Assembly: GCA_028277585.1 (NCBI GenBank) | Contig: JANQFY010000126.1 | Coordinates: forward strand, 1-32,299 | Length of the DNA stretch: 32,299 nt | Origin: Sedimentisphaerales bacterium | GTDB lineage: Bacteria > Planctomycetota > Phycisphaerae > Sedimentisphaerales > Anaerobacaceae | Direction of reading: 5' to 3' | In this document: piece after piece, positions 1,241-16,651 of the stretch | How the letters are laid out: each line of letters opens with the position of its first letter | Numbering within the stretch: position 1 is the first letter of the stretch | Made by a program: the position numbers and the translations under genes | The notes under the pieces: generated by a model | What the model was told of the DNA's origin: nothing | Database searches by the model: none | What the model saw: the letters and a program-made list of their open reading frames with translations, nothing else

Positions 1241-3126
1241 TGCTACGCTTCCTATCAAATTCCAAACAGAGTGCTCCGAAGGGCCCGGCCCCGACGGACG
1301 CGTCCGAGACGACGGCGGCGATTGCCTTTGCCGATGACGGTGAGGTACGCGGCCTCAGCGACCTGTATTCTCCGGAACCGACCAGCCAGACGCACATTCG
1401 CGACGTGGCGGACGTTCTCATGGAGATGGAGAAGATCACGGACGAGCAGTACGGGCGGCTGCGGCGGGAGCTGATGAATCGGCCGGACATCGACGCCGCC
1501 ACCTGGCTGCTAAAGGAAGGATTCGTGGTCGCCGGTGACGTGCTGCAGGCCAAGGCCGAACTGGGAGGCATGGAGTTTCGACAGATCTCTCCGGATCAGG
1601 TCGATCGTGACGCTTTCGACAAACTCGATCTGGCCTTCATCCAGAGGAGCAGCATCGTTCCCATCGAGATCGATGAGGGCGTGCTGGTCGTCGGGACGAG
1701 CGAGCCGTCCAATATCTTCGCGGTCGAAGACGTGAAGCGGCAGACGGAGATGGACGTGCGTGTGGTGGTCTGCAGCCCGGAGGACGTGGCCGCCATCTGC
1801 GAATCGTTCTCGGCCTCCGAAGAAGGTCCCAATGACTACAACCTCGATGAGATCATCAACGACATGACCGAGGTCGAGGTGGTCCAGGACGAAGAGGATG
1901 ACTCCGAGGATCTCGAGTCGATGGCGGGCCAATCGCCTGTCATCAAATTCGTCAACTACCTGATCAGCAACGCTGTTCGGGAAGGGGCCAGTGACATCCA
2001 TATCGAGCCCAAGGAGGCCCACACCCGCGTGCGCTATCGCATCGACGGCGTTCTGTTCGACGCGATGCAGGCGCCGACCAAGATGCACCCGGCCATTGTC
2101 TCGCGTATCAAGATCATGGCCAGCCTGGACATCTCCGAGCGGCGCTTGCCTCAGGACGGTAAGGTCTCGGCCATCATCGGTGGTCGCGCGATTGACCTGC
2201 GTATCTCCACGCTGCCGACCAACCGCGGCGAGAAGACGGTGATTCGTATCCTCGACAGCAGTTCGATCGTACGTGGGCTAGGGCATGTCGGCATGGAGTC
2301 GGACGTCTGTGCCGCGTTTGCCGAGCAGGTGGCGATGCCTCACGGGATTCTCCTGGTGACGGGGCCGACCGGTTCCGGCAAAAGTACGACGCTCTACTCG
2401 GCCCTGGTCGAGATGGATGGAGACCGACTGAATATCTCGACGGTGGAAGATCCCGTCGAATACGAATTGAGTTTCTGCAATCAGGTTCACGTTCACGAGA
2501 GCATCGGGATGACGTTCGCCGCGGCGCTGCGCAGCCTGCTGCGTCAGGACCCCGATGTCATCATGATCGGCGAAATCCGTGATAACGAGACGGCACGCAT
2601 CGCCGTGCAAGCGGCGTTGACGGGCCACCTGGTGTTGTCGACGTTGCACACGAATGATGCGGCCAGCAGTGTGACGCGACTCGTCAACATCGGCATCGAT
2701 CCTTATCTGATCGCCGCGTCGCTCAACGCGGCGGTCGCTCAGCGTCTGGTGCGAAGGATTTGTCCGAAATGCACCGAGCCTTACAAGGTCCCCGATCGGC
2801 TGCGCCGTTATGTCGAGCAGAGCGGCGCCAATCCGGGCGACCTCGTCCATGGCGCCGGCTGCGAGGCCTGTCGCGGATCGGGGTATTCCGGTCGTGTCGG
2901 CATCTTCGAAATGCTGGTGGTCGACGACAAGTTCCGAGACATCATCAATCAGGACACCTCGGTTGCCAACATGCGTCGCGCTTTCATCGAGAGTGGACGC
3001 GATTCGCTGTTTGACGACGGTATGAAGAAGGTTCGGAAGGGCCTGACCACGGTGGAGGAAGTGCTTCGGGTGACCGAGGTGTATGGCCAGAACGAACACG
3101 AAGAATTCATCGAGAACATCGACTAG
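1240..3126 (+). CDS. pilB: Type IV pilus assembly / type II secretion ATPase (PilB/GspE)
   Basis: This 628-aa hexameric ATPase powers pilin or pseudopilin polymerisation at the cytoplasmic face. An N-terminal MshEN/T2SSE-N-like region (about 50-195) is followed by an acidic linker (about 200-228), then the catalytic core beginning near SPVIKFVNYLI and EGASDIHIEP. Walker A GPTGSGKST is at 375-383, the Walker B region DPDVIMIGEIRD at about 437-448, and the His-box STLHTND at 467-473. A C4 zinc site is formed by C508, C511, C541 and C544, and its presence separates this family from PilT. The length is typical of PilB/GspE. It is coupled to the preceding gene by TAATG and followed after 39 nt by pilT. 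PilB is preferred over GspE because PilT, PilO and PilP-like genes adjoin it. Confidence 0.93.
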   Translation: MLRFLSNSKQSAPKGPAPTDASETTAAIAFADDGEVRGLSDLYSPEPTSQTHIRDVADVLMEMEKITDEQYGRLRRELMNRPDIDAATWLLKEGFVVAGDVLQAKAELGGMEFRQISPDQVDRDAFDKLDLAFIQRSSIVPIEIDEGVLVVGTSEPSNIFAVEDVKRQTEMDVRVVVCSPEDVAAICESFSASEEGPNDYNLDEIINDMTEVEVVQDEEDDSEDLESMAGQSPVIKFVNYLISNAVREGASDIHIEPKEAHTRVRYRIDGVLFDAMQAPTKMHPAIVSRIKIMASLDISERRLPQDGKVSAIIGGRAIDLRISTLPTNRGEKTVIRILDSSSIVRGLGHVGMESDVCAAFAEQVAMPHGILLVTGPTGSGKSTTLYSALVEMDGDRLNISTVEDPVEYELSFCNQVHVHESIGMTFAAALRSLLRQDPDVIMIGEIRDNETARIAVQAALTGHLVLSTLHTNDAASSVTRLVNIGIDPYLIAASLNAAVAQRLVRRICPKCTEPYKVPDRLRRYVEQSGANPGDLVHGAGCEACRGSGYSGRVGIFEMLVVDDKFRDIINQDTSVANMRRAFIESGRDSLFDDGMKKVRKGLTTVEEVLRVTEVYGQNEHEEFIENID

Positions 3127-3165
3127 GACCGCGGGCGGATCGCCCGGATCGGACAGGATTCGGAA

Positions 3166-4281
3166 ATGATAGACATCAAAAATGTACTGGCGATGGCCAT
3201 CGAGAACCGTGCCAGCGACGTTCACATCAATGTCGGCATGCCTCCGGTGTTGCGCAAAGATACGGAGTTGATCGACATGGACTTCCCGCCGGTGACCGAT
3301 GATGACGCGCGGGCGATGGTGCTGGCGATGGTGGGCCCGGAGAAGATGAAGAAGTTCCAGGAACAACGGGACCTGGACTTCTCCACCGAAATCTCCGGCG
3401 GCCATCGTTTCCGTGTCAACGCGCATTACCAGCGCGACACGATCGCCATCTCGTTCCGTGTCATTCCCAATCAGGTGCACAGCATCGATGATCTTCACGT
3501 GGCGCCGATCATCAAGGAACTGACCGATCTGCCGCGCGGACTCGTGCTGGTGACCGGCCATACCGGTTCGGGCAAGAGCACCACGCTCGCGGCGATGCTG
3601 GGACTGATCAACCAGCGGTACAGCAAGCGTATCATCACGCTGGAGGACCCGGTCGAGTACCTGATGGAGAATGAGAAGTGCATGATCGAGCAACGGGAGA
3701 TCGGTTCGGATTGCCCGAACTTCGCTTCCGGATTGCGCCATGCGCTGCGTCAGGACCCCGACATCATCATGGTCGGCGAAATGCGTGACCTGGAAACGAC
3801 CAGCTACACCATTACCGCCGCTGAGACGGGGCACCTGGTCTTCAGCACGTTGCACACGATCAACGCGCCGCAGAGTATCGAGCGTATCGTCGACATCTAT
3901 CCGGCCGGCCAGCAGAACCAGATCCGGACCATGCTGGCCAACACGCTGCAAGCGGTGATCTCGCAGACACTCTTCCGTCGCGTGGATGAACCGGGCATGG
4001 TGCCCTGCACCGAGATTCTCCTCTGTACGTCCGCGACGCGGAACTGCATTCGCGAGAACCGAATCTACGAGATTCCCAATATCATCGAGACCTCTCGGCG
4101 GTTGGGCATGCAGACCATGGACAACAGCATCGCCGATATGTACTTCAAGGGCTTCATCGATCGTGAGGAGGCCATCGTTCGCTCGGGCAACCCGGGGAAG
4201 ATGGAGAAAATGCTGGTCGCGGCCGGGAAGATGAACACCGAGCCGCAGACGGTGACCGCAACCGCCGGCGCAGAGAGTTGA
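3166..4281 (+). CDS. pilT: Twitching motility / pilus retraction ATPase PilT
   Basis: This 371-aa ATPase of the PilT family drives pilus depolymerisation and retraction. The N-terminal PAS-like domain opens with NRASDVHINVGMPPVLR (about 12-28). Walker A GHTGSGKST is at 131-139, DPDIIMVGEMRD at 197-208, and the His-box STLHTINAP follows. The C-terminal helical segment has SATRNCIRENRIYEIPNII, matching the AIRNLIRE region characteristic of PilT. There is no C4 zinc motif, and the protein is much shorter than the upstream ATPase, as expected for PilT. The Shine-Dalgarno before the ATG is weak, so translation may depend on readthrough from pilB. The presence of a retraction motor argues for a true dynamic type IV pilus rather than a pure secretion system. 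Confidence 0.93.
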   Translation: MIDIKNVLAMAIENRASDVHINVGMPPVLRKDTELIDMDFPPVTDDDARAMVLAMVGPEKMKKFQEQRDLDFSTEISGGHRFRVNAHYQRDTIAISFRVIPNQVHSIDDLHVAPIIKELTDLPRGLVLVTGHTGSGKSTTLAAMLGLINQRYSKRIITLEDPVEYLMENEKCMIEQREIGSDCPNFASGLRHALRQDPDIIMVGEMRDLETTSYTITAAETGHLVFSTLHTINAPQSIERIVDIYPAGQQNQIRTMLANTLQAVISQTLFRRVDEPGMVPCTEILLCTSATRNCIRENRIYEIPNIIETSRRLGMQTMDNSIADMYFKGFIDREEAIVRSGNPGKMEKMLVAAGKMNTEPQTVTATAGAES

Positions 4282-4292
4282 GTGAGGGTGAC

Positions 4293-5477
4293 ATGGCTAT
4301 GCCAACCATGCTAGAACGTGAAAGCCGCCTGGCCGCCTCCGACGAGCGACAGACCTCGATGGGAGGGGACGCGATAACGGGCGGGCACACCTCCGGGACC
4401 GTGCTCGAAAAGATGAGGGGCTTCAAGGTCGAATTCGGCCCCAGTCGCAAAGATATCCTCCATTTCACTAGTCAGTTGGCGGTGATGATCCGCGCGGGCA
4501 TCAGTCTGCAGGACGCCCTCGATTCGATCGCGGAACAGTCGGACAACGACAAGTTCCGCCGCGTGCTCCGCGATTTGAAACTGCGGATCGAAGAGGGCAA
4601 CAGCTTCTCGCAGGCGCTGGCCGAACATCCCAGCATCTTCAGCAACCTCTACGTGAACATGGTCGCGGCTGCCGAGGCGTCCGGTTCGCTCAGCGATATG
4701 CTTCAGAAACTCGCCGAGTACCTGGACCAGGAAGCGGAGACACGCTCGCAGGTCAAGAGCGCGATGGTCTATCCGATCATCATTGCCGTGATGGCTGTCA
4801 GTGTCACGGCCTTTCTGTTGTGCTTTGTCCTGCCGCGCTTCACCCGCATCTTTGCCGGCAAGGAGCATCTCCTGCCCATGCCCACCACTGTACTCATGCT
4901 GACCAGCGCGTTTCTGCGGAACTGGTGGTACGCCATCTTGCCCTGCATCGGTGCGGCGTTCTGGGCCTTTCACTATTTCATCAACACGACCACGGGCCGA
5001 CTGTGGTGGGACAAGACCAAGCTGGTCCTGCCCCTGATCCGCACGCTGTGCCGCAATCTCTATATCACGCGCAGTCTGCACACCATGGGTGTGCTCACCC
5101 AGGCGGGCGTGCCGATCCTCAACACCCTGTCGATCACCGCTCACATTTCGGGGAATGTCCTTTTCAAACGCATGTGGCTTGGCATCCATGAAGAGGTCCG
5201 GCAGGGCAAGAAGATCGCCTCGAGCCTGACCCAGTACAAACTGATGCCCGGCTCGGTCGTGCAGATGATTCGAAGTGGCGAGGATTCCGGTAATATGGCC
5301 GAGGTCCTCAGAGACATCGCCAATTTCTACTCCCGCGAACTGAAAGCTGTGATCAAGGCGGTGACATCCATGATCGAGCCGATCATGATTGTGGTCATGG
5401 GTCTGTTGGTTGGGTTCATCGCCATGAGCATCATCCTGCCGATCTTCAAGATGTCGAGTCTGGTCTCGGGCGACTAA
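4293..5477 (+). CDS. pilC: Type IV pilus inner-membrane platform protein PilC/GspF
   Basis: This is the platform protein on which the assembly and retraction ATPases act; with the chosen start it has 394 residues. Two T2SSF repeats are visible: LHFTSQLAVMIRAGISLQDA near the N-terminus, and LYITRSLHTMGVLTQAGVPI in the second half, each with the conserved short helix and the GNSFSQAL- or GKKIASSL-type turn. Hydrophobic segments lie at about 160-185, 212-232 and 365-390, the normal three-helix topology. The frame also holds a TTG at 4278 overlapping the pilT stop and an ATG at 4299. ATG 4293 is chosen because GAGGG lies just upstream, but 4299 would give a more usual spacing. The last third ends with the typical GxxIAMSIILPIFKM motif. 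Confidence 0.9.
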   Translation: MAMPTMLERESRLAASDERQTSMGGDAITGGHTSGTVLEKMRGFKVEFGPSRKDILHFTSQLAVMIRAGISLQDALDSIAEQSDNDKFRRVLRDLKLRIEEGNSFSQALAEHPSIFSNLYVNMVAAAEASGSLSDMLQKLAEYLDQEAETRSQVKSAMVYPIIIAVMAVSVTAFLLCFVLPRFTRIFAGKEHLLPMPTTVLMLTSAFLRNWWYAILPCIGAAFWAFHYFINTTTGRLWWDKTKLVLPLIRTLCRNLYITRSLHTMGVLTQAGVPILNTLSITAHISGNVLFKRMWLGIHEEVRQGKKIASSLTQYKLMPGSVVQMIRSGEDSGNMAEVLRDIANFYSRELKAVIKAVTSMIEPIMIVVMGLLVGFIAMSIILPIFKMSSLVSGD

Positions 5478-6939: not shown

Positions 6940-6999
6940 CACGTCCAGAGAGGCACCATCGACCAAAGGCAAATGGACTTACATGGGAGATCTGCCAAA

Positions 7000-9900
7000 A
7001 TGAAGACGAGACTGATCCTGACTGTGGTGGTCTGTTTGGCAATGCTGGGCGGCACTGGCGTCGTGAGGGCCCAGGGACTCAGCGCCGAGCAACTCGCCGA
7101 TCATGGTTTGCCGGCCGGCCCCGCCCGCGAGGTGCTCCCCGGTGCGGGGGCTCTGGTTCACCTGCAACTGCACGATCTATTGGGCGTGCTCGAGGGGGTC
7201 GAGGAGATCCTGGTCGCTGGTGTGCCGGACAAGGCGGCGCCGCCCGACGTTCAGGAGTTGCTGCAAATGGAGCACCCCTTGCTGACGCTCCTGGGAATGC
7301 AGACCTTGCAGCAGCCCTTGACCTCTGAGTTGCTCGAGCAGGCGACGGGTATTGACACGCGCGGAGCCGTCGGACTGACGCTCTACCTGGGCGATCCGCG
7401 ACGGATGTTCGTACTGAGTCTGCCCACGCGGTCCCGCCAACCCCTGGCGCCTCTGCTCAATGCTGCTCTGGAACCAGCGGAGGTCGAGGAGGTGAGCATC
7501 GGTGGCAAGAAGGCGGTGCGTATGGTGTCGCAAAGACTCTCGTTCTTGCCCGAGCTGTACCTTGTTTCGTCCAGTGACACGCTGTACCTATGTGGCGCTC
7601 GTTCGCTGGCACAGGCCCTGTATGTCACGCCCACCGCGCAACGTTTCGGCCAGGACCCCTTCATGAGTCGCGCCCTGGCAGTCGAGGAGAAGAAACAACT
7701 CCGCGTGGTCCTCAATCCTGCCAATGTGAAGCCGCTCGCCATGCAGTTGCAGGGCCTTAGCATGCTCGCCAAGACATTGATTCCCCAGCAGCGGGCTGGG
7801 CTCATGCAGCAGATACCGCCGGAGGTCAAGGAACAGATCGAGATGCAGGTCCGCATGCAACTGGGGGTGCGCGACTTCGAGCAGTTCGTGGACTATGTCG
7901 AGTGCATTCTCATCGCGACTCTGGAGCAAGTGGTTGATGGCATCTCCGGGCGCCTGCTGGCCTTCGAGGGCTTCACCATGGCCGCCGATCTCCGCGGCGG
8001 TGTCCTGGAGTTCAACACAGGCTTGTACTCGAGCCGTTTCCAAGGAGAGACCGGCAACAAGCCTCTGCCAATGGATCAGGTGAAACAGGCGCTGGCCTGG
8101 CTGGGACCCGAATACCAGTCCTTCACGGTGACGGGGAAGAAGCCCGAGCCTAAGGAATCGCCGATCCTTGCGGCCTGGTCCAAACGGGTCCAGAGACAGT
8201 GTGCGTCGAAGGGGCTCCCCTGGCCGGGCATGGATCGGTTCGTCGAGATGCTCGACGCGCTGCGGGCCGTCCCCACGGTCGAGAGCCGGGCGTCCTGGGT
8301 CTTGAGTACGCATGCGCCGCTGTATCCGGCCCCGTCGCTCATGGACGCCGCCAGCCTGGAGGACTACTTCATCTCGCTGGAACTGCCCGTCTATCGTCCG
8401 GTGAAGATCACTCCCGATCAGGGGCGGCGTTTCCTGGAAACGTGCTTCCGGGAAGAGACGGACGCATTGAACGAGAATCGCCAACTGGGTCAGGATTTCG
8501 CCAATACCTTCCAGAAACAGAAGCCGTGGTGTCTGCAGGAGAACCGCTTCGCGGTCTCGGCTATGGACGGGGGCGTCACCCGCTACACCCGGGAGAGTAC
8601 CTGGACTTCGCGATCCGGCCTGTTCGGTTACGATCAGCATGAACTCATCAATCGCAAGGTGGTCTACGCTCGGCGTGTGGGCGATTACCTGGTCTATCAT
8701 CGCGGTGCTCAGGCGTCGTCGTGGTTGCCCCAGTTGAAGCCCAGTCAGTCCCGCACGATAGCCCCGGGCGTGGCTGACTTGCTGAGCCGTGTGCCCGATG
8801 GGGCCAACTACGTCTCGGTCCAGCGTGTGCTCCAGAACCTGCCGGGCTGGGTCAATTGGATTGGCCTCTTCGAGGCGCGTTTGCACGCGGATGTCGAGAA
8901 GTATCTGGAAGCCGCCCAGGCCGCCGTGGACAGCAGCGCCGATCTGGAAGCCGCCAAGTTCAAGATCCGCGGCATGAGAATGCCCCCGATCGTGGGAAGC
9001 GTGAATATCAACCCCGAGACCAAGCGGGTCTACGCGATCTTGCCGGCCGGCAATATGCCTCTGATGTTGCCCCGGCCCAAGATCCTGCCCTTGGTTCAGG
9101 AGTTGTTCGCCGAGTATGCCGCCCAGGCCGACAGTCTGGGAGGCAGTCTGGTCTACACCAAGGTCGGTGACGGATCGTGTCAGTTCGCGGCGATGCAGAG
9201 CACCGCTGCGCTGACGACGCTGACGCGGACGGTGGGTAACGCGCTGTTCGAGAAGTACCTCGGCTCCCAGGAACGGCAAGAGGAACTACAGCGAACCCTA
9301 ATGACTCGGCGCGATGGCGATCGCAGTGTCTTCGATGAGGTGGTGGCGCGCAATCCGCAATGGGCGTTTATCCCGCAGCCGCAGCCCAAAGTGCCGGCCA
9401 AACCCAGCAAGAGGATCCCATCCCGAAGCACGGGGTTGGACAGCCGGTTGCTTGATCTCTCATCGCACTACAACGCGGCGCTGAACGAGACCTGGCACAA
9501 GGGCGGCATGTCGAACAACACGCTGAAGGATCTACCCACGGGCCAACAGACCCTGGGCGGCGTGTCCTTTGACATTCGCGGGATCGTTCAACTGTCCGGA
9601 CGCCAGGCCGAGCAGGAACTCAGTGTGCAGTTCCCCAAAGAGGCGGCCAACATCACCGTGGGGCAGAAGGCTCGGAAGATTCACTTCTTGCATGGTTGCG
9701 GTTGGGCGTCGGCCCGGGGGACATCCATCGGAACGTACGTCGTTCACTACCGGAACGGCCAGACGCGCCGCGTGCCCATCGTCTACGGTGTTGATGTCAG
9801 AGACTGGTGGATGAGCGAATCCGACACGCCGGGCTCCGAAGTCGATGTCGTGTGGACGGGGACGAACCATGCTGCGCCGGATAATCCTCAGATCGGCGTC

Positions 9901-10017
9901 AGTAAGACGACATGGGACAATCCCATGCCTGACGCGGAGATCGACCGTATCGACTACCAGTCGGCCATGCGGAACTCCGCGCCGTTCCTCATTGCGATTA
10001 CTGTAGAGTCTCCCTAA
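7000..10017 (+). CDS. Large exported protein with C-terminal beta-rich module, function unknown
   Basis: The start at 7000 is chosen over the in-frame ATG at 6973 because GGGAGA (6985-6990) sits 9 nt upstream and the product then begins with a clean Sec signal, MKTRLILTVVVCLAMLGGTG, with likely cleavage at VVRA|QG. The protein has 1005 residues. Residues 25-800 are unfamiliar, with Leu-rich alternating segments such as GAVGLTLYLGDPRRMFVLSL, and no catalytic motif that I recognise. A Pro/Lys/Ser linker (about 790-811) leads to a C-terminal domain (about 812-1005). Its pattern LLDLSSHYNAAL, GVSFDIRGIVQLSG, IHFLHGCGWA and YVVHYRNGQ resembles beta-sandwich modules seen at the ends of other planctomycete exported proteins. 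A periplasmic or surface scaffold role is a guess. It is monocistronic or leads into the PQQ-like gene 113 nt downstream. Confidence 0.8.
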   Translation: MKTRLILTVVVCLAMLGGTGVVRAQGLSAEQLADHGLPAGPAREVLPGAGALVHLQLHDLLGVLEGVEEILVAGVPDKAAPPDVQELLQMEHPLLTLLGMQTLQQPLTSELLEQATGIDTRGAVGLTLYLGDPRRMFVLSLPTRSRQPLAPLLNAALEPAEVEEVSIGGKKAVRMVSQRLSFLPELYLVSSSDTLYLCGARSLAQALYVTPTAQRFGQDPFMSRALAVEEKKQLRVVLNPANVKPLAMQLQGLSMLAKTLIPQQRAGLMQQIPPEVKEQIEMQVRMQLGVRDFEQFVDYVECILIATLEQVVDGISGRLLAFEGFTMAADLRGGVLEFNTGLYSSRFQGETGNKPLPMDQVKQALAWLGPEYQSFTVTGKKPEPKESPILAAWSKRVQRQCASKGLPWPGMDRFVEMLDALRAVPTVESRASWVLSTHAPLYPAPSLMDAASLEDYFISLELPVYRPVKITPDQGRRFLETCFREETDALNENRQLGQDFANTFQKQKPWCLQENRFAVSAMDGGVTRYTRESTWTSRSGLFGYDQHELINRKVVYARRVGDYLVYHRGAQASSWLPQLKPSQSRTIAPGVADLLSRVPDGANYVSVQRVLQNLPGWVNWIGLFEARLHADVEKYLEAAQAAVDSSADLEAAKFKIRGMRMPPIVGSVNINPETKRVYAILPAGNMPLMLPRPKILPLVQELFAEYAAQADSLGGSLVYTKVGDGSCQFAAMQSTAALTTLTRTVGNALFEKYLGSQERQEELQRTLMTRRDGDRSVFDEVVARNPQWAFIPQPQPKVPAKPSKRIPSRSTGLDSRLLDLSSHYNAALNETWHKGGMSNNTLKDLPTGQQTLGGVSFDIRGIVQLSGRQAEQELSVQFPKEAANITVGQKARKIHFLHGCGWASARGTSIGTYVVHYRNGQTRRVPIVYGVDVRDWWMSESDTPGSEVDVVWTGTNHAAPDNPQIGVSKTTWDNPMPDAEIDRIDYQSAMRNSAPFLIAITVESP

Positions 10018-13624: not shown

Positions 13625-16600
13625 ATGAATGAACGGCGAACGTCAATTACGGTCTATGGTTGGCTTCTGGTCGTGCTGTTGGTCTCTGCGGCCCGTTTGG
13701 TCCAGGCGGATCCGGTGGGGATGTGCGAGCACGGGAAGACACAATTGGTCTTTCCGGGCGATCCATTCGAGGTGCGCCAGTACGCGGGGATGTCCAATCT
13801 GGGCTGGGTCAAGTTCACCTTGCTCAATCCCCCGCACGACCCGAACGTTGTGTACTTCCAGGACGGGGAGCGGTTTCCTTTGCACTACAACTTTGTCTCG
13901 GGGTGTCTCGATCCGTTTGTCGGGATCGGGCCGCAAGAGTTCGATCGGATCTCGTTGCATGCGGAGAATCAGCAGGTCATCCTCGGCGCTGTGATCACGC
14001 CGCCGGCCGGCTACGGAGTCAGCGCCCCGATCCCCGAGTACGGCGTGCAGTTCGTTCGCCATGATCCGTTCACGCGCGAGGAGATCGTCACGCTCTTTCG
14101 GAAAGTCACCGCCGCGATCAGCAGCGATCCGAACGTTGTGCCGTACTACTTCCCCGCCTTCGAGCAGTCGCAAGTGGCGCAGGGCAACGCCGCCTGGTTC
14201 GCCGAGCAAGGGATCCCCATTGGCTCGACCGCGCGATGGGTGCGGGGCAACGCGATCTACTCGGAAGGCTGGGCGCTGGGACGTCTGAAGTATGTGGAAT
14301 CGAACGAGATCGATCTGGCCTATCAGCGGGGCGATCTCCGCGCCGATGACATCCTGCTGACCGATGCGGTGCCGGCCGAGATTCCCGTGTTGGCAGGTGT
14401 CGTGAGCCTGACCCCTTCGACGCCGAACAGCCATGTCGCGATTCTCGCTAACACGTACGCCATCCCGTTCGTCCATTTGGCCGAGGGAGACGATCGACAG
14501 GGAGCGTTCGATCTGGAAGGACGCCGCATTGTCCTGAGGGCGTATGACTCGTACTGGCGCGTCAATGCCGACACGGTCGGTGTGCAGTTGGAGGACGCCA
14601 ACGACACGATGACCGATGAACAGGCGGCCGAGTTCCTCAGTCTCAAGCAGCCTCCGACACTCAGCATTCAACCTGTCGAACACCTGGGCGACTACAGTGC
14701 CTCGGTCGACATGCTACAGCCTGAGGACATCCGCTACTTCGGAGGCAAAGCCGCCAACTACTCGATCCTGCGCCGGGCGATTCGCGAGCACAGCCGTCAG
14801 GCGCTGGCGTTCTCCTTCGATCTGTGGAACGCGTTTCTCGATCAGACGCTTGCCAATGGTCACACGCTCCGCGCCGAGATCGGCAGCCGGTTGTCGGGGT
14901 ACAATTTCCCGCCCGCTTCCGCGGCGGCTCTGTCACACGAGCTGGAACAAGTTCGTGAATTGATCAAGGACGATGGCGCGACGCGGTTCTCGCCTGTCCT
15001 GAGAGAGGCGGTGATCGCCGCGCTGACCGATCCGGCCCATGGTCTCGATCCGAACCGGAAGATCCGCTTCCGCAGTTCCACGAACGTTGAGGACAGCGAG
15101 CACTTCAGTGGGGCCGGGCTCTACGACAGCTTCAGCGGTTGCTTGGCGGACGATCTGGACGACGACGATTCCGGCCCATCCCATTGCGATTCCGACAAGC
15201 GCAAGGAGCGCGGCGTCTTTCGCGCTATTCGCAAGGTCTTCGCCAGTTTCTACAACGATAACGCGTTCACCGAGCGTTTGCGTCATGGGCTCTCCGAGGA
15301 CGAGGTTGGTATGGCGCTGCTGGTGCACCACTCCTTTCCCGACGAGATCGAGCTGGCCAACGGTGTCGCGGTGCTGGAGATCAATACCTACGGCATGACC
15401 GCCGAGATCGTCACTCAAGGCGGCGCGATGTCCGTGGCGAATCCGGAGCCGGGACTGATCCCGGAAGAGGTAACGGCGTCGACGTCCCTGGGATCGGATG
15501 ACGTCTACGTGCGCGTGGGCTCGTACTCGAATCTCACGCCCCTGGGGCAAACGGTCATGACTTGGTCGGACGACTACAAGGATCTGATGGAGCTTCTTGT
15601 CCAAGCGGCGCAGCAGTTCGAACGGGACACAGGTCGCAAGCCCAAGCGGCTTGACTTCGAGTACAAGAAGATCGCGCCGGAAGGCAAGCTCGTCGTCAAG
15701 CAGATCCGCGAGATTCCTACCGCGTCGGGTGCAGCCGCCAAACGACGGTTCCTGGCCGGCGGTTCGGTTCGGCTCTCGGTACTCCAGAGCGAATACTCCG
15801 AGCCTCTGGCCCTTCATCGGCTCAAGTGCGACTGGCAACTCGAGAGCGGCAGTCACTGGTTGACGGCTGAGGAACTCGATGTGTGTCTCTTTCAGGGCGG
15901 GACGATGGAATACCAGGATGAAGGGCAGATCTGGACGACGTCCGGTTCACTCGCTTCCTGGCCTGAAGCCCAGCATGGACTCGTGAAGCCCGAGACAAAT
16001 CAGGATATCGAGATGACGGACTCCTGGACCTTTGACCACCTGGAGAATGCCCGCCGGTATACGCTCACGACGCGTATCGGCGGTACTGGCGTCGTGCCCG
16101 ATGAATGCCCCGTCCTGTTTCTCTCCGATCTAACGTATCGGCTGGCGGTGAAGTACGCCGAGCCCGTGCTCGCCTGGGACTGGATGCAGGACGGCGCGGT
16201 GACCAGCACCACGACCGATGAGGTCCGCCTGGTTCCGGCGTTGGAACCGGATCGCGATGACCTGCTCCAGTATCGTCAGATCGTCGATGACGGAATCACA
16301 GTCGAGACGTCGTATTTCTGGCCTCCGCCGCCCACCGGACCGACGGCCGGCTACACCGCGCCGCTTTCCAGTTGGGTGGAGACCGTTGTCACAGGATTGA
16401 CCGCCGAGCCATTTACGCTAAGAAGCCCCTACGCCCAGACGTACAGCGCGGGGCACCACAACTTCTTCGAGCGGTTCCTGCTCGAGCCGCGACTGGACCC
16501 CGATCTGCCTGAGACGGTGCGGGGCGAACTTCGCGCGAAGGGAGTGGATCTGATCTCCGCCAGCACGGGCTTTGGCGAGGCCGCCATTGAGACGTACGAT

Positions 16601-16651
16601 CTGGTCGATATGGCGTTGCCGCCCGAAGACAGTGCGCCCGAACAACAATAG
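13625..16651 (+). CDS. Exported PEP/pyruvate-binding (PPDK_N) protein with dikinase-like architecture
   Basis: The product has 1008 residues. The start at 13625 gives a Sec signal (hydrophobic 11-23, likely cleavage LVQA28|DP). Residues about 255-285 hold TPNSHVAILANTYAIPFVHL, which resembles the phosphohistidine swivel motif of PEP-utilising enzymes, with candidate catalytic His270. An ATP-grasp domain of the PPDK/PEP-synthase type follows (about 365-700): IRYFGGKAANY with K375, RSSTNVED at 483-490, then SGAGLYDSFSG, FASFYNDNAFTERLRHG, and the closing LDFEYKKIAPEGKLVVKQIR (about 676-695). An acidic insert DDLDDDDSGPSHCDSD splits the ATP-grasp. The C-terminal 300 residues are unfamiliar, and no PEP barrel is evident. 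The order His domain then ATP-grasp matches glucan water dikinases, not PPDK. The substrate is unknown, and export of an ATP-using fold is puzzling. Confidence 0.82.
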   Translation: MNERRTSITVYGWLLVVLLVSAARLVQADPVGMCEHGKTQLVFPGDPFEVRQYAGMSNLGWVKFTLLNPPHDPNVVYFQDGERFPLHYNFVSGCLDPFVGIGPQEFDRISLHAENQQVILGAVITPPAGYGVSAPIPEYGVQFVRHDPFTREEIVTLFRKVTAAISSDPNVVPYYFPAFEQSQVAQGNAAWFAEQGIPIGSTARWVRGNAIYSEGWALGRLKYVESNEIDLAYQRGDLRADDILLTDAVPAEIPVLAGVVSLTPSTPNSHVAILANTYAIPFVHLAEGDDRQGAFDLEGRRIVLRAYDSYWRVNADTVGVQLEDANDTMTDEQAAEFLSLKQPPTLSIQPVEHLGDYSASVDMLQPEDIRYFGGKAANYSILRRAIREHSRQALAFSFDLWNAFLDQTLANGHTLRAEIGSRLSGYNFPPASAAALSHELEQVRELIKDDGATRFSPVLREAVIAALTDPAHGLDPNRKIRFRSSTNVEDSEHFSGAGLYDSFSGCLADDLDDDDSGPSHCDSDKRKERGVFRAIRKVFASFYNDNAFTERLRHGLSEDEVGMALLVHHSFPDEIELANGVAVLEINTYGMTAEIVTQGGAMSVANPEPGLIPEEVTASTSLGSDDVYVRVGSYSNLTPLGQTVMTWSDDYKDLMELLVQAAQQFERDTGRKPKRLDFEYKKIAPEGKLVVKQIREIPTASGAAAKRRFLAGGSVRLSVLQSEYSEPLALHRLKCDWQLESGSHWLTAEELDVCLFQGGTMEYQDEGQIWTTSGSLASWPEAQHGLVKPETNQDIEMTDSWTFDHLENARRYTLTTRIGGTGVVPDECPVLFLSDLTYRLAVKYAEPVLAWDWMQDGAVTSTTTDEVRLVPALEPDRDDLLQYRQIVDDGITVETSYFWPPPPTGPTAGYTAPLSSWVETVVTGLTAEPFTLRSPYAQTYSAGHHNFFERFLLEPRLDPDLPETVRGELRAKGVDLISASTGFGEAAIETYDLVDMALPPEDSAPEQQ

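Follow-up and report, generated by a model that had tools for sequence, protein, structure and literature searches.

A predicted exported dikinase-type protein family of Planctomycetota with the phosphohistidine domain ahead of the ATP-grasp

In the glucan water dikinases GWD and PWD of plants and algae, the phosphohistidine domain appears to precede the ATP-grasp domain (PPDK_N). This order, the same as in the family reported here, follows for GWD from its C-terminal PPDK_N, the position of His992 in the potato enzyme and the length of that enzyme, which we take to place His992 before PPDK_N. The C-terminal location of PPDK_N in GWD and PWD (PMC11986951) and the catalytic role of potato His992 (PMC12892837) are taken, like all literature statements below, from excerpts of the cited papers. 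In phosphoenolpyruvate (PEP) synthase and pyruvate phosphate dikinase (PPDK), the ATP-grasp leads, a histidine domain is central and the pyruvate domain comes last, and rifampin phosphotransferase (RPH) also begins with the ATP-grasp and carries its histidine in the C-terminal region (PMC4844700). PPDK, PEP synthase, RPH, GWD and PWD are described as metabolic, resistance or plastid enzymes. An exported dikinase family is not named among the titles and abstracts listed by searches of open-licence literature, subscription journals being mostly outside the scope of this search, and we know of no exported member of the dikinase superfamily. Here we describe a protein, P0001, encoded on a stretch of 32,299 nucleotides from a Sedimentisphaerales bacterium (GCA_028277585.1, contig JANQFY010000126.1; hereafter the window), which a preliminary description of the same DNA had presented as an exported dikinase-like protein.

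The open reading frame of P0001 lies on the forward strand, from an ATG at 13625 to a stop at 16651, and encodes 1008 residues; the in-register opposite strand is interrupted by stops. Translation confirmed the reading frame, its coordinates and the residues named in the preliminary description. Its predicted parts are, in order, a Sec-type signal, the N-domain, the phosphohistidine (swivel) domain, the ATP-grasp, which is of the PEP synthase/PPDK type, and the C-domain (Table 1), with H270 in the motif STPNSHVAILA, K375 in FGGKAAN and the motif RSSTNVED beginning at R483. Since invariant catalytic residues combined with export are most simply explained in this way, we favour, at a probability of roughly 55%, the reading that P0001 is an active extracytoplasmic dikinase-type phosphotransferase.

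The Pfam family PPDK_N matches residues 372–583 of P0001 above the Pfam cut-off (E = 7.2e-13), and is matched in 25/25 members of alignment A3 and 17 of the 18 members of alignment A1. Searched against the PDB, the family profile finds PEP synthase 2ols (E = 3.1e-18), with the ATP-grasp aligned over nearly its whole length. K375 thereby falls at the glycine-rich lysine loop of PEP synthase and R483 at its RSS loop, while the E...K..Q.R motif of the family aligns with the end of the PEP synthase ATP-grasp. We aligned P0001 with 50 proteins from other loci, all from Planctomycetota. K375, R483, S484, S485, N487, E489, D490, E679, Q693 and R695 are identical in all 51 rows; position 270 is a histidine in 49 rows and a gap in two truncated ones, hence in 49/49 members that cover the site. 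H270 and the ATP-grasp residues are likewise invariant in another alignment, of 25 diverse members from the same set with identities to P0001 as low as 20%. The preliminary description had singled out H270, K375 and R483. All three are thus conserved, a non-conserved H270 is excluded, and E679, Q693 and R695 add three further invariant ATP-grasp positions. The activity of RPH requires Lys22, the equivalent of Lys22 in PPDK (PMC4844700), and the glycine-rich motif suggests that K375 corresponds to it.

The phosphohistidine domain is best seen in profiles. PEP-utilizers, the Pfam family of the mobile phosphohistidine domain, matches P0001 at residues 252–287 under the Pfam cut-off (E = 0.027), and is matched in 15/18 A1 members (best E 6.3e-5) and 8/25 A3 members; GWD1_pHisD is matched in four of the 25 A3 members (best E 0.0012). 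Among ten single proteins scanned, two match PEP-utilizers and two match GWD1_pHisD (L079 and L004), the L079 match (E 6.2e-4) being located at the conserved histidine; all His-domain matches in single proteins whose score was seen are below the Pfam cut-off. An hhalign comparison of the family region 205–343 (A5, 32 rows) with the His domains of PPDK and enzyme I (A9, 18 rows) gave a score of 22.4 (P = 0.005) with the histidines aligned, as against 10.6 for the N-domain and 12.6 for the C-domain. None of 100 column-shuffled A9 controls reached 22.4 (maximum 19.95), and the reversed version scored 11.5. With a canonical His profile run on each protein, 22 of 49 members outscore the best reversed sequence. 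A PDB search with the His-domain profile alone returned no credible chain (best E 0.12). Together, the profiles, weak in single proteins, indicate that residues 205–343 are likely homologous to the swivel domain, and make it unlikely that this region is something else, as the preliminary description had allowed.

The histidine domain stands before the ATP-grasp in all 49 members covering H270, so that the order proposed earlier, and its comparison with glucan water dikinases, hold. P0001 shares with PEP synthase and PPDK the ATP-grasp and the nucleotide-binding residues, and differs from them in its reversed order, in its predicted export and in having no match to a PEP/pyruvate barrel family in Pfam and NCBIfam scans, in agreement with the preliminary description; on these grounds we rejected P0001 as a cytoplasmic PEP synthase or PPDK. 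The GWD/PWD likeness extends beyond the order, as the His region of some family members resembles GWD1_pHisD. In contrast to GWD and PWD, the family is bacterial, P0001 is predicted to be exported, the N-domain is the family's own, a C-domain is added, and the ATP-grasp is the C-terminal end only in a minimal group of the family, not in P0001. Unlike in GWD and PWD, the N-terminal starch-binding modules CBM45 and CBM20 are absent from the Pfam matches of P0001 and the members scanned; with no CBM45, an identity of P0001 as GWD is not established. Like the family, RPH joins an ATP-grasp to a His swivel and has a different acceptor domain where the barrel would be. In RPH the rifampin-binding domain lies between a leading ATP-grasp and a closing His domain; in the family the order is reversed, and P0001 is predicted to be exported. 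NCBIfam RIF_Ptrans_rph scores 12.7 on P0001 against a cut-off of 999, which together with the order places P0001 outside RPH. What is new is thus the predicted placement outside the cytoplasm and the two new domains, while the other domains and their rare order are already known.

P0001 starts with a typical Sec signal (MNERRTSITVYGWLLVVLLVSAARLVQA, with the cleavage site placed by eye before D). A rule for a signal-like N-terminus was met by 32 of 38 complete family N-termini and by 0/11 controls (the two Streptomyces relatives described below, six PPDK and three enzyme I); the rule was fixed after the sequences had been inspected, 13 of the 51 members were omitted as truncated or cut, and the rule ran over up to about 145 codons in some members, whose true starts are unknown, as against 60 in controls. 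Of the six members that failed it, visual inspection shows a lipobox in L057 and an export-like N-terminus in L032, L062, L069 and L078; the sixth, L073, is of uncertain true start. A lipobox pattern occurs in four members (L006, L027, L057 and L084), being best in L084 and L057 and doubtful in L006.

Several members carry modules of an extracellular type. In eight of the 51, some 160 residues are inserted into the ATP-grasp near residue 412, a segment that Pfam assigns to the lamin tail domain in L035 (E = 2.9e-12) and in 4/18 A1 members. Dockerin type I is matched in three of the 18 A1 and six of the 25 A3 members (best 5e-7), and below the cut-off in three single proteins scanned; L067 has 13 FG-GAP stretches and L080 has EF hands. 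P0001 itself has no dockerin, lamin tail or FG-GAP match in Pfam. The acidic insert inside the ATP-grasp noted in the preliminary description is real and conserved: a segment of roughly the form CxADDLDxDxxGPxxC is found in 41/51 members and missing in 10/51, the 41 having both cysteines and the 10 neither. This all-or-none pairing fits a disulfide and hence an oxidising compartment, with the caveat that cysteines within one insert are gained and lost together with the insert. We infer that the two cysteines may be joined in such a compartment, and that the acidic stretch enclosed by them may form a site for Ca2+ or Mg2+.

Taken together, the N-termini, the extracellular modules of relatives and the paired cysteines support the predicted export of P0001, in line with the earlier proposal, and the N-termini and insert cysteines make a cytoplasmic localisation unlikely. 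The same evidence bears on the idea that P0001 is a cytoplasmic relative of PEP synthase or PPDK with a false signal peptide. The best named matches are indeed PEP synthases, and the plasmid relatives are annotated as PEP/pyruvate-binding domain proteins; with export-type N-termini in most members, extracellular modules and paired cysteines, in addition to the reversed order and the missing barrel match, this idea is hardly credible.

A separate question raised by the dockerin-like tails is that of a cellulosome-like complex. Cohesin, to which dockerin binds, was found, mostly weakly, in 6 of 13 carrier genomes (five above the cut-off), and was not found in several genomes whose members have dockerin-like tails, for example G176, G205, G014, G017 and G028. 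Such a complex is thus unsupported.

The N-domain would be the natural place for a second substrate. Its residues K63, H87, F90, G121 and Y175 are invariant in 25 diverse members and also in 32, and K63 and H87 are kept in both Streptomyces relatives as well; the alignments thus place the N-domain in the conserved core of the family. It has no Pfam match, and a PDB profile search (A6) gave nothing credible (best E 0.5). The same is true of the C-domain (no Pfam match; PDB profile search A7, best E 0.051), which bears out the uncharacterised C-terminus of the preliminary description, and phmmer with P0001 alone found nothing in the PDB at E up to 1. Minimal members of about 600–670 residues do without the C-domain: L004, L030, L031, L077, L079 and L081 terminate in the motif KQARPW(I/V), where the ATP-grasp ends, and L080 and L082 of the same group run a few residues further. 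Because these members have no C-domain, the N-domain is the better candidate for the second-substrate site, and the acceptor site is likely to reside there rather than in the C-domain. Within 41 genomes the C-domain is found only in the family, all 16 matches lying within family members spread over 10 genomes. Outside these genomes, a separate frame adjoining a family member (L014:2240-2911, +) matches C-domain residues 884–978, and is either a free-standing copy of the module or a split-off piece.

These N-domain residues also bear on whether the nucleotide itself could be the substrate. An exported enzyme might consume ATP (to AMP and two Pi) or AMP, Pi and PPi, as a scavenger or sensor with no organic acceptor. 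The complete ATP-grasp and histidine are compatible with this, no known acceptor domain is present in the family, and RPH variants at Arg117 and Thr136 turn over ATP without phosphorylated drug (PMC4844700). We consider it unlikely, given that the five N-domain residues are kept as strictly as those of catalysis, a pattern that points to a second substrate.

P0001 is a member of a multi-group family and not a single odd protein, judging from the sequence tree. Relatives were detected in 16 of 61 related genomes (E up to 1e-5), and a phylum-wide sample of 392 genomes yielded 20 with a relative (E up to 1e-8, with at most two candidates scored per genome); because the host genome was counted in both surveys, 35 carriers are known. 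The two named records that match P0001 are Phycisphaerales metagenome-assembled genomes, at 67 and 69% identity. A tree was built from 49 of the 51 proteins (L013 and L051 were too short and omitted) and two Streptomyces plasmid relatives, and rooted at its midpoint. It resolves three Planctomycetota groups with support of at least 100/98 each, namely a minimal one (8 proteins), one with C-terminal extensions (19) and the one that includes P0001 (22), whereas the deepest forks have support of 90/83.

The two Streptomyces proteins (WP_331760287.1 and WP_142270066.1) cover 89% of the minimal member L031 at 25% identity. They have the N-domain, His domain and ATP-grasp in the same order and keep H270, K375, R483, E679, Q693, R695, K63 and H87. 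They differ in being 22% identical to P0001, in having no signal by the N-terminus rule, no C-domain and no acidic insert, in having different gene neighbours and in their branch of 2.69 changes per column. These sequences suggest that the unit of N-domain, His domain and ATP-grasp extends beyond Planctomycetota and is not always exported. In both Streptomyces gene pairs (L086:5520-8893 and L087:3514-6890), the family gene lies directly downstream of a second ATP-grasp gene and precedes an MFS transporter gene, an arrangement that looks like part of a small-molecule biosynthesis cluster. The gene pairs invite another explanation, in which the family phosphorylates a metabolite, as RPH does, and export was added in Planctomycetota. 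Two signal-less relatives with the same order and residues, set between ATP-grasp and MFS transporter genes, speak for this explanation; at 22% identity and across so long a branch they are distant guides to P0001, and we rate it as quite improbable.

In plasmids, L031 matches 82 records, two of which span 80% or more of the query; among the 25 matches listed, the other 23 cover 45–53%, in the ATP-grasp part. L067 matches 42 plasmid records, and among the 15 matches listed all cover its FG-GAP part. L031 also matches four phage records, with 30–51% covered. P0001 itself found no relative in plasmids, and two scans of viral contigs found none. The host genome has a second family paralogue, L037 (G000:C408, locus 1930-4618, -), which is split over three frames with one TAG and is a pseudogene or an assembly error; full-length copies related to it (L021-L024) are present in four other genomes of the genus.

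The carriers commonly encode another type of phosphotransferase that acts outside the cytoplasm. CotH-type kinases have a protein-kinase-like fold without a phosphohistidine. The CotH of Bacillus is a Ser/Thr kinase acting on a coat protein (PMC7821199). CotH-type kinase domains occur in 12 of the 13 carriers tested, with a median of 29 matches; among the non-carriers the figure is 13 of 24, with a median of 1 (one-sided Mann-Whitney p = 5e-5). Both sets were chosen by hand and consist of related genomes, the carriers being 13 of the 35 known ones and the non-carriers measuring at least about 4 Mb. With CotH common in the tested carriers, an extracytoplasmic phosphoryl transfer would not stand alone there. 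The link is one of context only: such kinases are common company of the family genes. At L142:3837-10252, a frame with a CotH domain converges on a dikinase-like gene; each is 1065 codons long, and 26 bases separate them.

We propose a model for P0001, with the mechanism taken over from GWD, PPDK and RPH (PMC7569903, PMC4844700). The ATP-grasp would bind a nucleotide outside the cytoplasm, ATP by homology and presumably the phosphoryl donor, and its beta-phosphate would move to H270. The swivel domain would then turn away from the ATP-grasp and pass the phosphate to an acceptor held by the N-domain (K63, H87 and Y175), with release of AMP and Pi. The C-domain, the dockerin-like tails and the lamin-tail and FG-GAP modules may serve binding or display. 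The acceptor that we favour, a glycan of the surface or the environment, is a guess by analogy with glucan water dikinase. The authors of the RPH study expect that its distant relatives still transfer phosphate, though to different acceptors (PMC4844700).

Several points weigh against an active extracytoplasmic phosphotransferase. The preliminary description had already seen that such an enzyme would need a phosphoryl donor outside the cytoplasm. The chief objection is indeed that we know of no ATP supply there in these bacteria. The glycan acceptor has no direct support, and carbohydrate-binding modules were not found in the members scanned. As for the histidine domain, hhalign's own probability is 7%, six of the ten single proteins scanned have no Pfam His-domain match, and the best match to the canonical His profile takes in H270 in 26 of the 49 members rather than in every one. 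AlphaFold2 gave a pLDDT of 28.9 for the whole of P0001 and 39.0 for residues 203–345, from three input sequences each. The gene is patchy, as given by the 16/61 and 20/392 genomes above, and the excess of CotH domains vanishes within the host's family (25, 0, 8, 4 and 12 in carriers, as against 13, 11, 0, 3, 5 and 5; p = 0.36). In addition, L020, a relative from another genome that lies outside the 51 rows, has neither the ATP-grasp nor the His motif. This locus (L020/L036, G053:C57) is a 706-codon frame with a signal-like start, a degenerate His region (PSQDVILF) and a retained C-domain, while the N-domain and the whole ATP-grasp are lost.

Alternatively, the dikinase fold may have taken on a new, non-catalytic role outside the cell, for binding or as a structural part of a surface protein; a repurposed fold was one of the outcomes that the preliminary description had envisaged. 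In favour of this, little extracellular ATP is to be expected, FG-GAP, dockerin-like or lamin-tail modules give several members the build of surface proteins, and L020 keeps the C-domain although it has lost the ATP-grasp and His motif. We nevertheless judge this to be improbable, as six catalytic-type positions are invariant in all covering members of the 51, in three groups and over long branches, unlike what is seen when catalysis is lost. The preliminary interpretation thus stands in part: its domain order, conserved residues, export, acidic insert, missing barrel and uncharacterised C-terminus have held, and its swivel domain is likely from the profiles.

If P0001 is such an active phosphotransferase, ATP-driven phosphotransfer would take place outside the cytoplasm by a mechanism differing from that of secreted protein kinases, which raises the question of the ATP source. 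One may speculate, tentatively and with more doubt than confidence, that Planctomycetota possess a second extracytoplasmic phosphorylation system beside CotH, in which exported dikinases displayed at the surface move the beta-phosphate of extracellular ATP via a His arm to a polymer, of the surface or the environment, on a new acceptor domain. Also of interest is the compact unit that N-domain, His domain and ATP-grasp make up in some 600 residues, with the domain order of GWD, whose structure was described as still missing in 2026 (PMC12892837). Annotated relatives are hidden under PEP/pyruvate-binding names.

Table 1 Predicted features of P0001 in window coordinates
Feature	Position	Strand	Basis
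Sec signal peptide, residues 1-28 (MNERR... LLVVLLVSAARLVQA, cleaved before D)	13625..13708	+	Translation; hydrophobic stretch behind Arg residues; cleavage site by eye
N-terminal domain, residues 40-203	13742..14233	+	K63, H87, F90, G121, Y175 invariant; no Pfam match
Phosphohistidine (swivel) domain, residues 205-343	14237..14653	+	Pfam matches; profile-profile comparison with controls
H270 codon, candidate phosphohistidine	14432..14434	+	His in 49/49 members covering the site
ATP-grasp, residues 346-705 (K375, R483, E679, Q693, R695)	14660..15739	+	Pfam PPDK_N; PDB PEP synthase; 51/51 residues
Acidic, cysteine-bracketed ATP-grasp insert, residues 505-527 (C506...C521)	15137..15205	+	Both Cys in 41/51, neither in 10/51
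C-terminal domain, residues 712-995	15758..16609	+	No Pfam match or credible PDB sequence match

The surroundings of the gene were compared with those of the close relatives L025 and L026; no conserved operon was found around the window gene, and nothing upstream of it recurs. Convergent genes for a carbon-nitrogen hydrolase and a beta-helix protein downstream of the window gene recur in both relatives, and a ceramidase-like gene further on recurs in L025. Elsewhere, the dikinase-like gene of G028 has next to it a series of small frames (L146:9893-13998, +), which by eye end in PEP-CTERM-like sorting signals. Within the window, a frame of 1014 residues at 6973-10017 (+) adjoins genes of the type II secretion/type IV pilus type and has no Pfam or NCBIfam match. 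The segment 21259-32297 (+) encodes a Gfo/Idh/MocA oxidoreductase, DeoC and DHDPS aldolases, a ceramidase-like protein, a sodium/solute symporter and two sulfatases, and looks like a catabolic cluster for the use of a sulfated sugar.

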